The position numbers and the translations under genes are program-made. Positions 11,922 to 27,610 of a DNA stretch of 64,000 nt are shown piece after piece. The stretch comes from Bacteroidia bacterium. GTDB taxonomy: Bacteria > Bacteroidota > Bacteroidia > Bacteroidales > GWA2-32-17. The stretch's first letter is position 1; each line of letters opens with the position of its first letter. The DNA is taken from NCBI GenBank assembly GCA_016218155.1, contig JACREQ010000075.1, forward strand, positions 1-64,000. The letters are read 5' to 3'. The notes under the pieces were generated by a model. The model was given only the letters and a program-made list of their open reading frames with translations, was not told the origin of the DNA and did not search any database.

Positions 11922-12515
11922 TTAATTTTTAGTATTATTTTGTTTTTTCAATATAAGTTTTTTATTTGTGTACAAATATAACTTATACATTCCGAATGAA
12001 ATAACAGCTCCTAAAATTGCACCGCAAATTACATCACCGGGATAATGTACACCGTTATAAATACGACTGTAAGATACTAAAATTGCCCAAATAAAAATGA
12101 CATATTTCAATATTTTAAATGATTTATCCAAAGCTAACCAAAAGAAAACCGCCATACCTATTGCATTGGCTGTATGCGAGGAAACAAATCCATACATACC
12201 TCCAGGACCAGCGGAAGACATATGTACTAATCCTTCAAGAGCTGGTTCGTGTGAGGGACGTAGCCTTTCAACCAAGACTTTGATTAAATGTGATGCTCCC
12301 TGATCACAAAGAACTAGAGCAACAATTGCAAAAACTAAAATTAAAATAGAATCCTTTTTATAATGCCTGATTATTAAAAATGCAATTAAAAAATAAAAAG
12401 GAATCCAAATATCCTTATCGCTTAACCAATACATAATCGGATCAAAAAAAGAATTGTTTAACCCGTTTAGAAATAAGAATAATTGGGTATCTAGTTGGTT
12501 TAAATATTCTATCAT
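11922..12515 (-). CDS. PAP2-family membrane phosphatase
   Basis: A 197-residue membrane protein of the PAP2 (type 2 phosphatidic acid phosphatase) superfamily. About five hydrophobic helices carry the three conserved blocks: KVLVERLRPSHEP (motif 1, KxxxxxxRP), GFVSSHTANA (motif 2, SxH) and SRIYNGVHYPGDVICGA (motif 3, SRxxxxxHxxxD). Such enzymes dephosphorylate undecaprenyl pyrophosphate or phosphatidylglycerol phosphate in the inner membrane; the substrate here is unknown. A second PAP2 protein lies at 13344-13937 with a different N-terminus. The gene directly precedes eno. Confidence 0.88.
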   Translation of the reverse strand: MIEYLNQLDTQLFLFLNGLNNSFFDPIMYWLSDKDIWIPFYFLIAFLIIRHYKKDSILILVFAIVALVLCDQGASHLIKVLVERLRPSHEPALEGLVHMSSAGPGGMYGFVSSHTANAIGMAVFFWLALDKSFKILKYVIFIWAILVSYSRIYNGVHYPGDVICGAILGAVISFGMYKLYLYTNKKLILKKQNNTKN

Positions 12516-12591
12516 TAGGATTGATTATTTTTTATTGAACATTGTTAATTTATTATGATAATTTGTATAAAATTAAATTTTATTTCTATTA

Positions 12592-12774
12592 TTTCAAATT
12601 ATTATTGTCCTATAGAAATAAAATATTTAAAGACAAAATCATTATCAAGAATAAGCTCCAGCGGAGCTTAATATTTAATATTAATATCATTTATTCAAAT
12701 TATGTTTGTCCCTGCGGGACAAAATGTTTATAGATAATTTTATTTTCAAGGATAAGCTCCAGCGGAGCTTAATG
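12592..12774. repeat. Two ~100-bp tandem units with REP-like palindromes, RAYT-1 downstream flank
   Basis: Two diverged copies of a unit (about 12592-12676 and 12692-12776) share the order: CAAATTAT, a TTGTCC element, an AT-rich spacer ending TCAAG-ATAAGCTCC, then a palindrome. The identical 17-nt palindrome AAGCTCC-AGC-GGAGCTT occurs at 12653-12669 and 12754-12770, the latter four bases from the transposase stop. In unit 2 the first element is an intact palindrome TTTGTCCC-TGC-GGGACAAA (12705-12723); in unit 1 the same place (about 12606) has decayed. Stems closed by 3-nt loops next to a Y1 transposase gene fit REP/BIME sequences. Confidence 0.75.
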
Positions 12775-13239
12775 TTATTCTTCATACCATTCAAATAAAT
12801 ATTGCGGATCAAAATCTACATCATATTTAGCAAGCAATTCTAAATATTCATTTTTAAAAGAATTTTGTTTATGATGCTCTTCCTGATTTAAAATATAATT
12901 AATTACAGTTGTTAATTGAAGATGCGAATGCGTAAATGAGCCAAAACCCTCCTGCCAATAGAATTTGAAATTAGTGAATTTCTTTTCTTTAATAAAGATT
13001 GATGTAGATGTTTTTATATCCCTTACTAAATCAGAAACACAAATATTCGGTTTAAACCCAATAAGAATATGTGTATGATCTGGCATGCAATTAACGGCTA
13101 AAAGTTTTTGCCCATGATTTGTTACAATTCCGGTAATATACTTTTGTAATTCCTCTTTATGTTTTTTGGGAATTAGGTTTTCTCTGTTTCTTACAGCAAA
13201 AACAATGTGAACATACATTTGAGAATAGGTGTTTGCCAT
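12775..13239 (-). CDS. REP-associated tyrosine transposase (RAYT-1, IS200-like Y1 family)
   Basis: A 154-residue Y1-type HUH transposase-like protein. The HUH motif is PDHTHILIGF near residue 55, and the catalytic tyrosine is expected in NYILNQEEHH near residue 116. WQEGFGSFTHSH is a further family block. There is no accompanying TnpB, and the gene lies in short palindromes rather than complete IS ends, so it fits the domesticated RAYT group thought to act on REP sequences by single-strand cleavage. It shares only the general fold pattern with the second RAYT at 27008-27445. It is intact, with a normal ATG start. Confidence 0.9.
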   Translation of the reverse strand: MANTYSQMYVHIVFAVRNRENLIPKKHKEELQKYITGIVTNHGQKLLAVNCMPDHTHILIGFKPNICVSDLVRDIKTSTSIFIKEKKFTNFKFYWQEGFGSFTHSHLQLTTVINYILNQEEHHKQNSFKNEYLELLAKYDVDFDPQYLFEWYEE

Positions 13240-13269
13240 GGTATTATTTTGTATTTATCAATTTACATT

Positions 13270-13337
13270 CAGCTACTCTGTAGCTGAAAGGTATTTTTTT
13301 ATTTTTTTATAAACATTATGCTACTCTGTAGCATAAT
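13270..13337. repeat. Pair of REP-like palindromes upstream of RAYT-1
   Basis: CAGCTAC-TCT-GTAGCTG (13270-13286) and ATTATGCTAC-TCT-GTAGCATAAT (13315-13337) share the core GCTAC-TCT-GTAGC with different outer stem bases, separated by a T-rich spacer. They lie between the RAYT-1 start and the stop of the next PAP2 gene. Their stems differ from the AGCTCC and GTCCC palindromes on the other flank. Confidence 0.75.
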
Positions 13338-13343
13338 CAAAAC

Positions 13344-13937
13344 TTATTTAATACTTCTCTTTTTATTTAACCATTTTTGAGCTTTATAACAAAGAAAAGC
13401 AGAGCCTGCACCTACTAATGCACCTACTGCAACATCGCTTGGATAATGGACTCCAAGGTGCACTCGCGAATAACCTACTGAAGATGCCCACAAATATGAT
13501 GGTGCTATAACATACCACTTAGGATATGCCAAACTCAATGAAGTTGCCGTTGAAAATGCCTCTGATGTATGTCCCGATGGAAATGATTTACTCCCGGCAG
13601 AAGACATTTTTTCGATGTCAGGATATGTTTTAAAAGGGCGTTCACGGTTTATTGAATACTTCATTATTACAGTAATTCCAGAAGTTAAAACAAGAGAAGT
13701 TCCTAACAATAATCCTTTATGTTTAATTGTACTATCATTCATGATTAAACCAGTTCCCAAAACAACAGCAGGAACTCCAAAACTAACTATACCTGTTGTA
13801 TTAGAAATAAGCTGGAAACCACCATCGAGATTTTTATTTCTGTTTAAATTAATATCGCGCAATAATTCAATATCTGCATTCTGTGAGAAGCAATTAAATG
13901 AGAATAATAACAATATAAAGAATAAAATAATTCTCAT
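13344..13937 (-). CDS. Exported PAP2-family phosphatase, end of polysaccharide cluster
   Basis: A 197-residue PAP2-superfamily protein with an N-terminal signal sequence (about 18 residues, ending near NCFSQ) and a C-terminal membrane-associated catalytic half. The motifs are YSINRERPF, SFPSGHTSEAF and SRVHLGVHYPSDVAVGA, matching the three PAP2 blocks. It follows the initiating sugar transferase directly (start at 13937, transferase stop at 13938), so it belongs to the surface-polysaccharide operon. It may recycle undecaprenyl pyrophosphate released during polymer transfer, or remove a phosphate from the polymer or lipid A. The acyl or prenyl substrate is not determinable here. Confidence 0.85.
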   Translation of the reverse strand: MRIILFFILLLFSFNCFSQNADIELLRDINLNRNKNLDGGFQLISNTTGIVSFGVPAVVLGTGLIMNDSTIKHKGLLLGTSLVLTSGITVIMKYSINRERPFKTYPDIEKMSSAGSKSFPSGHTSEAFSTATSLSLAYPKWYVIAPSYLWASSVGYSRVHLGVHYPSDVAVGALVGAGSAFLCYKAQKWLNKKRSIK

Positions 13938-26876: not shown

Positions 26877-26886
26877 AATTTATTTC

Positions 26887-27015
26887 GGCTAAAGCCAGAT
26901 TTATATTTTTCATTTGCCACGACCTAAAGGTCATTGCAAATTTATCATTCCATTATTTTGCCCCGACCTTCAGGTCGGGGATTAAAAAAAATAAAAGCTA
27001 ATTGGCTTTAGCCAA
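26887..27015. repeat. REP-like palindrome array downstream of RAYT-2
   Basis: Four palindromes in order: GGCT-AA-AGCC (26887-26896); TTTGC..GACCT-AA-AGGTC..GCAAA (about 26913-26940); CCCCGACCT-TC-AGGTCGGGG (26961-26980); and TTGGCT-TT-AGCCAA (27002-27015). The last overlaps the RAYT-2 stop codon at 27008-27010. Stems vary in length, but the two cores, GACCT/AGGTC and GGCT/AGCC, recur on the other side of the gene. Confidence 0.8.
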
Positions 27016-27445
27016 AATTGCTTTTGCTTAATCCATTTATTTCCAAAAACTCATCATATTCTTCAGAAAATGTTTTCTTTTTATGATGTTCTTCTTGATT
27101 CAAAATATATTTCCTAACAATATCAATAGCTGATTCGCTTACAGATAAAGCAATATATTCATCTTGCCATTCAAATTTCTGCTTAATTATTTTTTGCTTA
27201 TTTACCCAAAATGAAGATTCTCCCTTTATTAGCATAGCAATTTTTGCAATAGTTTGCTCAGTACCTAATGAAATAAGCATGTGAATATGGTTATCAACAC
27301 AATTTATAGTATCGATAAAAATTTCTTTGACTTTACTATTTTCCTTTATATGTGATAAAAGTAATGGCTTTAATTCTTTTGAAATTATCGGCATTCTGTA
27401 CTTTGTTGCCCAAATAAAATGTATCATTACTTTAGTGTATGGCAT
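27008..27445 (-). CDS. REP-associated tyrosine transposase (RAYT-2, IS200-like Y1 family)
   Basis: A 145-residue Y1-HUH protein. The HUH motif is VDNHIHMLISL near residue 50 and the catalytic tyrosine is expected in KYILNQEEHH near residue 113. The WATKYRMP start and WQDEYIALSVSES block also match. It has no partner gene and sits between two palindrome arrays. Its N-terminus and several blocks differ strongly from RAYT-1, so the two are separate lineages, not a recent duplication. The stop codon lies inside a palindrome. Confidence 0.9.
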   Translation of the reverse strand: MPYTKVMIHFIWATKYRMPIISKELKPLLLSHIKENSKVKEIFIDTINCVDNHIHMLISLGTEQTIAKIAMLIKGESSFWVNKQKIIKQKFEWQDEYIALSVSESAIDIVRKYILNQEEHHKKKTFSEEYDEFLEINGLSKSNFG

Positions 27446-27455
27446 AACTTCTTTT

Positions 27456-27554
27456 GGCTAAAGCCGGATTTATTTTTTTATTTGCCACGACCTGAAGGTC
27501 ATGGCAAATAAATATTATTTTTTATTATTAAACTACTACATGACCTAAAGGTCA
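27456..27554. repeat. REP-like palindrome array upstream of RAYT-2
   Basis: Three palindromes: GGCT-AA-AGCC (27456-27465); TTTGCCA-C-GACCT-GA-AGGTC-A-TGGCAAA (27481-27508), with a single mismatched pair in a 13-bp stem; and TGACCT-AA-AGGTCA (27541-27554). The same two cores occur on the far side of the gene, with GGCT/AGCC nearest the gene on both sides and in opposite orientation. Confidence 0.8.
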
Positions 27555-27610
27555 ATTTATTAACATTTTTGCCTTTCCAAATCTTTTAATTGCAAAGACA
27601 ATTTATAACA

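Follow-up and report, generated by a model that had tools for sequence, protein, structure and literature searches.

What kind of element do a Y1 transposase gene and its flanking palindromes form when the palindromes differ from one another in sequence, and what does the protein then recognise? The question is raised by a locus in the window, which is the whole 64,000-nucleotide stretch of a Bacteroidia bacterium analysed here (contig JACREQ010000075.1, positions 1 to 64,000). The first-pass annotation had read the locus as RAYT-1, a Y1 transposase gene within three different families of REP-like palindromes.

The gene encodes a Y1 HUH protein of the TnpAY1 subclass 1.2 type

Direct reading and scanning of the sequence confirmed that an intact 154-residue Y1 HUH protein lies between palindromes on both sides. 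The domain profile search assigned it to the Pfam family Y1_Tnp (Table 1). The predicted fold (mean pLDDT 90.8, 57-sequence alignment) matches the TnpA proteins of ISDra2 and IS608 as well as the REP-bound tyrosine transposase 4er8, all among 30 structure matches at E ≤ 0.001, and the model thus gives the protein the Y1 HUH fold of IS200/IS605 TnpA or TnpAREP. The protein scores above the NCBIfam cut-off for IS200/IS605 and below the REP-associated one (REP_Tyr_transpos, 34.3 bits against a cut-off of 80). The Class 2 RAYT motif Y---NP is absent, and the protein carries Y---Q--HH instead (YILNQEEHH), a motif found in 75 of 77 related proteins. Its HUH motif is DHTH (residues 54-57), with Thr at the hydrophobic "U" position; DHTH occurs in 50 of the 77 proteins, DHIH in 12 and DHVH in 10. 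Quentin et al. (2018) define TnpAY1 subclass 1.2 by Y---Q--HH and DH[IV]H (PMC6006769). The protein agrees with that description in Y---Q--HH, the WQ motif, a length of about 150 aa, a low number of diverged copies and its occurrence in Bacteroidota, and departs from it in DHTH. Of the RAYT-1 reading, a Y1 protein with its own palindromes therefore stands, while the Y---Q--HH signature removes the gene from the class 2 RAYTs.

Four proteins in the genome of the window (G000) match at E ≤ 1e-15, the window protein included. The three further copies, also of the subclass 1.2 type, are 41%, 43% and 29% identical to it, the last lying at 27008-27445 of the window, and the protein search found no near-identical second copy in this genome. 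Against the two nearest relatives, dN/dS is 0.031/0.913 and 0.037/0.781, i.e. about 0.035-0.05. The gene is kept in four of the five genomes of the genus that were searched, the fifth being 74% complete. Both PAP2 neighbours adjoin it in L012, as in the window; in L011 the right-hand neighbour lies beside it and the contig ends on the other side. The purifying selection and the conserved neighbours suggest that the gene was inherited in place and kept by selection.

These data bear on an alternative in which gene and flanks are an ordinary IS200/IS605-type insertion sequence, the hairpins being its subterminal ends and scattered hairpin pairs its MITE-like, internally deleted derivatives. The locus does share with IS608 and ISDra2 the protein fold, for which their TnpA proteins are the closest matches, and the logic of hairpin plus guide, and the NCBIfam scores point the same way. 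The ends of IS200/IS605 elements are single hairpins in one orientation; here they are inverted double hairpins. The copies in the genome are diverged and not near-identical, PAP2 neighbours are shared with the nearest genus members, dN stays at 0.03-0.04 against a dS of 0.8-0.9, and a gene moving as one with its ends in near-identical copies, as such an element would, was not seen here. We consider this alternative improbable.

Five hairpins, four of them in two inverted units, flank the window gene

Five perfect hairpins with 3-nt loops flank the gene, three on its 3' side and two on its 5' side (Table 1). Their composition was annotated correctly, with two identical AGC-loop copies and one TGC-loop hairpin on the 3' side and two TCT-loop hairpins on the 5' side. 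The hairpin at 13315-13337 fell under the G+C cut of the hairpin scan and is plain on direct reading. The hairpin at 12652-12670 looks like an extra tandem unit; weak matches to the covariance model R1, described below, surround it (12599-12676 on the plus strand, E 0.001; 12646-12728 on the minus strand, E 0.043). Both two-hairpin units belong to the training set of R1, and their R1 matches are not independent. The feet of the window hairpins, as defined in the next section, are ATGT, and the boxes are TGTTTATAA and TGTTTATAG. The common 3-nt loop noted earlier holds, and the similar stem length holds in part: stems reach 8-10 bp if lower-stem pairs are counted, but across related loci systematic pairing is confined to the inner 5 bp.

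Table 1 Features of the Y1 locus in window coordinates.
Position	Strand	Feature	Evidence
12652..12670	.	Third hairpin, TAAGCTCC-AGC-GGAGCTTA, identical to the inner 3' hairpin and some 50 nt beyond it	
12700..12777	+	Two-hairpin unit, 3' side: outer hairpin with GTCCC stem, box, inner hairpin with GCTCC stem	R1 E 3.5e-9
12705..12723	.	Outer hairpin, 3' side, TTTGTCCC-TGC-GGGACAAA	Read from sequence, hairpin scan
12725..12733	+	Box TGTTTATAG after the outer 3'-side hairpin	Sequence and motif statistics
12753..12771	.	Inner hairpin, 3' side, TAAGCTCC-AGC-GGAGCTTA, adjoining the stop codon	Sequence, hairpin scan
12775..13239	-	TnpAY1 subclass-1.2-type Y1 HUH gene, 154 aa	ORF read from sequence; DHTH, WQ, YILNQEEHH; PF01797 E 6.9e-26
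13263..13340	-	Two-hairpin unit, 5' side: outer hairpin with GCTAC stem, box, inner hairpin also with GCTAC stem	R1 E 2.1e-9
13268..13288	.	Inner hairpin, 5' side, TTCAGCTAC-TCT-GTAGCTGAA, upstream of the start codon	Sequence, hairpin scan
13307..13315	-	Box TGTTTATAA after the outer 5'-side hairpin, one mismatch from TGTTTRTAG	Sequence, anchor list
13315..13337	.	Outer hairpin, 5' side, ATTATGCTAC-TCT-GTAGCATAAT	Sequence

The paired unit recurs at related loci with free stems and a constant foot

One genome scan yielded 80 related loci, giving with the window 81 loci and 155 flanks of up to 200 bp. Hairpins were counted if a 5-bp stem closed a loop of 3 or 4 nt, and pairs if the spacing was 46-57 nt. 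The 155 flanks contain 293 hairpins versus 15.4 in dinucleotide shuffles (maximum 22 in 50 shuffles) and 109 pairs versus 0.1 (maximum 2). Pairs are present in 94 of the 155 flanks; among 1186 windows far from the gene at these loci, 4 contain them. A cruder count, restricted to the 75 loci of the 80 whose flanks reach 100 bp or more, gave 205 hairpins with about 18 expected. Palindromes of the window type are far above chance.

The paired-hairpin unit is found at 62 of the 81 loci, the remaining 19 having no perfect pair. Towards the gene, a flank is ordered as outer hairpin (O), N3, [CA]TGTTTRTAG, about 22 nt, inner hairpin (I), N3, [CA]TGT and gene. The two hairpins of a unit share their orientation with a centre-to-centre spacing that peaks at 50, and the units are inverted across the gene. 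The foot [CA]TGT, 3 nt 3' of the stem, is equivalent to ACA[GT]-N3-hairpin on the other strand, an arrangement that parallels the GTAG-hairpin of classical REPs; among 113 pairs, the outer foot is CTGT in 39, ATGT in 18 and ATAT in 12, and the inner foot in 27, 19 and 10, respectively. Neither the conserved TGTTTRTAG box nor the pairing of hairpins at about 50 nt had been part of the earlier description. Tandem copies about 50 nt apart are present at L031, L037 and L075, and L030 has four-hairpin arrays on both sides of the gene.

An unbiased test of stem conservation was anchored on the box alone, with no hairpin required. The exact TGTTTRTAG occurs 61 times in the flanks with 0.88 expected, and 110 times at one mismatch or fewer with 9.6 expected. 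Across 106 distinct anchored sequences, the five core positions form Watson-Crick pairs in 85, 93, 85, 87 and 84 (79-88%), exceeding in every case the maxima of 500 column shuffles (83, 65, 54, 72 and 69). The next three stem positions remain within the shuffled range and sliding the arms leads to less pairing, so that the core stem is 5 bp. Pairing, and not stem sequence, is conserved in these hairpins; within G009 alone, 37 anchored hairpins have GCTCC, GTCCC, ATCCC and ACCCC stems, nearly all of them compensated. Since the stem sequence varies with compensation beside a common foot, the three supposed palindrome families are stem variants of one two-hairpin unit. Stem sequence was rejected as a family-defining feature, stems differing even between the hairpins of one pair and between orthologous sites. 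The loop GTA was set aside, with less force, as a recognised feature: it is the commonest, but AGA, GGA, ATA, ATC and AGC also occur.

At many loci the start codon is near the inner 5' hairpin, as might be expected if the hairpins acted as RNA, either as terminators or as 5'/3' UTR elements controlling this gene and others. In one report, the expression of IS200 transposase is also said to be affected by mRNA hairpins (PMC3733652). Such a role is very unlikely in our judgement, given the symmetric inverted layout on both sides of the gene, the conserved box outside the stem and the occurrence of dispersed copies in both orientations. No Rfam match was found in window 12500-13400, and the terminator reading was not supported.

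Copies of the unit are dispersed in intergenic DNA

The covariance model R1 was trained on 63 of 76 pairs (perfect outer stem, 3-nt inner loop, spacing 38-45); because these pairs flank genes, R1 matches at gene loci arise partly by construction. In the genome of the window, GCTCCNNNGGAGC has five copies versus none for the reversed-pattern control, and the three that lie outside the gene locus are full pairs, each with an outer stem unlike those at the gene. R1 sites outside the gene are found at C85 (E 1.4e-9), C107 (9.4e-8), C46 (8.3e-7), C69 (3.1e-5) and C31 (3.3e-4). At least four intergenic sites of this genome carry the element, and its dispersed copies are single two-hairpin units. The low copy number, five sites outside the gene at E ≤ 1e-3, suggests that the local system may be nearly inactive.

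For the host genomes of related loci, 26 of the 80 loci were chosen and one was left out; GCTCCNNNGGAGC is present in 24 of these 25 genomes, with 72-103 copies in four and 0-10 for the reversed control over all 25. Ten chosen host genomes hold from at least 17 to at least 116 R1 matches each, the gene locus included. In G009, the sites are mostly of the form I'-box-O'.O-box-I with the ends ACAGG...CCTGT (20 sites among the matches listed, which are not a random sample). This four-hairpin unit spans 149-155 bp in 11 of the 12 sites with both ends found and 100 bp in the twelfth, and its central stems covary within the one genome. Gene-less O-I.I'-O' units occur in G010, which would suit the insertion-sequence alternative.

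At 29 three-kb loci with full flanks, comprising dispersed sites and some gene-flanking ones, no pair lies inside an ORF of 120 aa or more, versus 65% of random stretches. The palindromes therefore both flank a Y1 gene and are dispersed in intergenic DNA, as REPs do in the broad sense of the term. The concern raised at annotation, that they might occur only here or at chance frequency, is answered by their dispersal in this genome and in its relatives.

A second series of repeats, with gga/tcc loops (GCTCC-gga-GGAGC, ACTCC-gga-GGAGT), was observed at L176-L195 in G025, where it is interleaved with the main unit.

The unit accompanies the gene family and some of its sites are polymorphic between genomes

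The association was assessed in 247 Bacteroidota genomes at least 90% complete, at E ≤ 1e-4 for R1 and E ≤ 1e-40 for the protein. R1 matches occur in 65 genomes, the protein in 62 and both in 46 (Fisher 2.8e-21, odds ratio 25, with kinship ignored). R1 is thus present in 46 of 62 genomes with the protein, a count to which matches at the gene's own flanks contribute, versus 19 of 185 without it. Three or more R1 matches are found in 29 of the 62 versus 9 of the 185, and with the protein at E ≤ 1e-55 all 14 genomes have R1. Contrary cases run both ways: the protein occurs without an R1 match in 16 genomes, and R1 without a close protein in 19. G181, G249, G217 and G235 have 5-11 R1 matches (11 each in G181 and G249) and no protein relative at E ≤ 1e-15; these are possibly orphan repeats, or the gene may have been lost or left unassembled.

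Within the genus, pairs are present at the locus in the other three members with the gene (apparently L011, L012 and L015, by the same contig numbers). Absence of the palindromes from related genomes that retain the gene, which would have spoken against the proposed association, was thus not encountered in any of the four gene-keeping members among the five searched.

Individual dispersed sites differ between genomes. G275 lacks the pairs that G000 and G274 carry at C46 and C69, the C85 pair is shared with G001 (apparently the same genome as G274), and the C107 pair is found in all three genomes; part of this comparison combines the alignment of the window genome with G275 and a direct reading of the G274 sequence. 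Neither of these two polymorphic sites, C46 and C69, is polarised and the borders of both are ragged, which makes loss as possible as gain, and the intergenic DNA is too diverged for exact insertion borders or target sites to be read there. At L151 (G274:C10), the site orthologous to C107, extra hairpins of the form GACTCC-cct-GGAGTC / GGACTCC-tct-GGAGTCC were observed; they carry TGTTTGTAG boxes, and the other two genomes are without them.

Foot and box follow the protein tree

The two hairpins of a pair have the same foot 4-mer in 42 of 88 oriented pairs versus 15.4 after shuffling (maximum 25 in 2000 shuffles; 7 proteins with stops or too short were left out), and outer and inner stems are identical in 38 oriented pairs versus 21.9 (maximum 31). 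On a protein tree of 77 rows, with label counts from 38, 36, 50 and 50 loci, foot type requires 7 changes (shuffled mean 13.4, minimum 8) and the RTAG base 5 (12.5, minimum 8), compared with 22 for outer stems (32.4, minimum 29) and 15 for inner stems (19.7, minimum 17). The first-pass annotation had proposed asking whether palindrome type follows protein clade: foot and box do, and stems do so more loosely. Shared descent of the loci could produce part of this agreement.

Such covariation weighs on the possibility that the system is a relic, which spread in the past and whose protein has since taken on a different host function and stopped moving the repeats. The low copy number in the window genome, the strong purifying selection on the protein, and repeats lacking a detected gene, as in G181 and G249, would be compatible with this. 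Host genomes with more than 100 matches argue against it, as does the co-variation of foot and box with protein clade, which points to an interaction maintained over long times. We regard a relic as unlikely.

A probable REPtron-like system of subclass 1.2, with proposed recognition by shape and foot

Drawing on the observed structure, covariation, link to the gene family, dispersal and site polymorphism, we conclude that gene and hairpins probably constitute a REPtron-like (REP/REPIN-like) system of TnpAY1 subclass 1.2, recognised by shape and foot. That stem letters change freely while the fold is kept suggests recognition by hairpin shape together with a short neighbouring tag. By homology, the Y1 HUH nuclease would bind the hairpins in single-stranded form once one strand becomes accessible, as it may on the lagging-strand template, reading hairpin shape and foot and not stem letters, and the foot ACA[GT] would be the guide that chooses the cut. 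Units might be excised and re-inserted as single strands or duplicated in tandem. The units on the two sides of the gene face one another, and two units joined tail to tail make up the 149-155 bp dispersed element of at least one host. Stems could drift because any change can be compensated, and the protein would constrain foot and box, which would differ from one protein clade to another. Cross-complementary guide/cleavage pairing, considered for the ACAG and ACAT feet, showed no clean shift in a candidate cut site.

Several described systems are close to this one. In Quentin et al. (PMC6006769), REP is listed as "no" for subclass 1.2, whose members are generally without IS200 terminal structures; the paired unit reported here is present at most loci of this type and its copies are dispersed. 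Their REP screen called for GT[AG]G no more than 2 nt away and for stems of 7 bp or longer, and for this reason could not have found the present units. As subclass 1.2 was defined as IS200-related proteins lacking both IS features and REPs, the target of these proteins had been open. The open-access literature searched listed no REP for this subclass.

REP/RAYT systems (TnpAREP, class 2) likewise combine a Y1 gene flanked by hairpins that bear a foot tetranucleotide with repeats scattered in intergenic DNA and inverted arrangements. Their foot is GT[AG]G at 0-2 nt, whereas here it is ACA[GT] at 3 nt, and the mark of canonical REPs, GTAG or GTGG lying 0-2 nt 5' of a stem 7 bp or longer, is lacking. 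The present system further differs from them in its 5-bp core stem, two same-strand hairpins about 50 nt apart, Y---Q--HH in place of Y---NP and many stem variants within one locus. In a 2021 study of REP recognition, GTAG serves as the guide, and loop and stem matter differently by group (PMC8266576). A REPIN is also a dispersed inverted element of intergenic DNA and consists of two inverted REPs, whereas the G009 unit, I'-O'.O-I, has four hairpins. Besides TIRtrons, Di Nocera et al. (2013) describe repeats of the GTAG and CGTC kinds (PMC3733652). In TIRtrons a Y1 gene (TIRYT) also lies between inverted repeats, some self-complementary; many of these share GGGGWSAS, in contrast to the 5-bp hairpins and TGTTTRTAG found here, and TIRYTs belong mostly to subclass 2.1.

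We also put forward, tentatively and leaning somewhat against it, that the unit represents a second, GTAG-independent REP design, in which hairpin geometry, spacing and the ACA[GT] foot are what is recognised and the stem sequence is free. Under this proposal the regular pair at about 50 nt, with four hairpins in the dispersed unit, would imply a higher-order nucleoprotein complex on single-stranded DNA, for example two TnpA dimers sharing a strand, and this complex would have no counterpart among the described synapses of IS200/IS605 or RAYT proteins.

The REPtron-like reading offers a candidate DNA partner for subclass 1.2 and a reason for its having been overlooked. A variable stem beside a constant foot lets natural covariation serve as an experiment on the way hairpins are read by HUH Y1 nucleases, and it provides numerous natural substrates that uncouple shape and tag from stem sequence. 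R1 also supplies a model of a dispersed intergenic repeat for the annotation of Bacteroidota genomes.

Other Y1 genes in the same genome

The second subclass-1.2-type gene of the window (27008-27445, minus strand; flanks 26880-27560; YILNQEEHH; the 29% identical copy) is flanked by another set of hairpins, GACC-TRAA-GGTC and GGC-TAAA-GCC. A genome-wide search for dispersed copies of its hairpin gave four GACCTRAAGGTC matches, all at that gene, and three for the control. A third such gene, L004 (G000:C71:28233-28682), has flank hairpins with CGTAG/TGTAG centres at a spacing of 45-51 nt, which follow the two-hairpin plan of the window gene with a different foot; seven hairpins of this type lie at the locus and four elsewhere in the genome, against a control of two. 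L007 (G000:C105:246701-249919) carries a subclass-2.6-like Y1 gene (YIHQNP) surrounded by long hairpins resembling AACTACGCTGAG / AACTACGCCAAG, which recur five times within 1.2 kb. Another Y1 gene, in L006 (G000:C69:20078-23305; YIHNNP), has imperfect hairpins on either side, GGCGCAAGC-ATCT-GCTTGTGCC and GGCACAAGC-AAAT-GCTTGCGCC.
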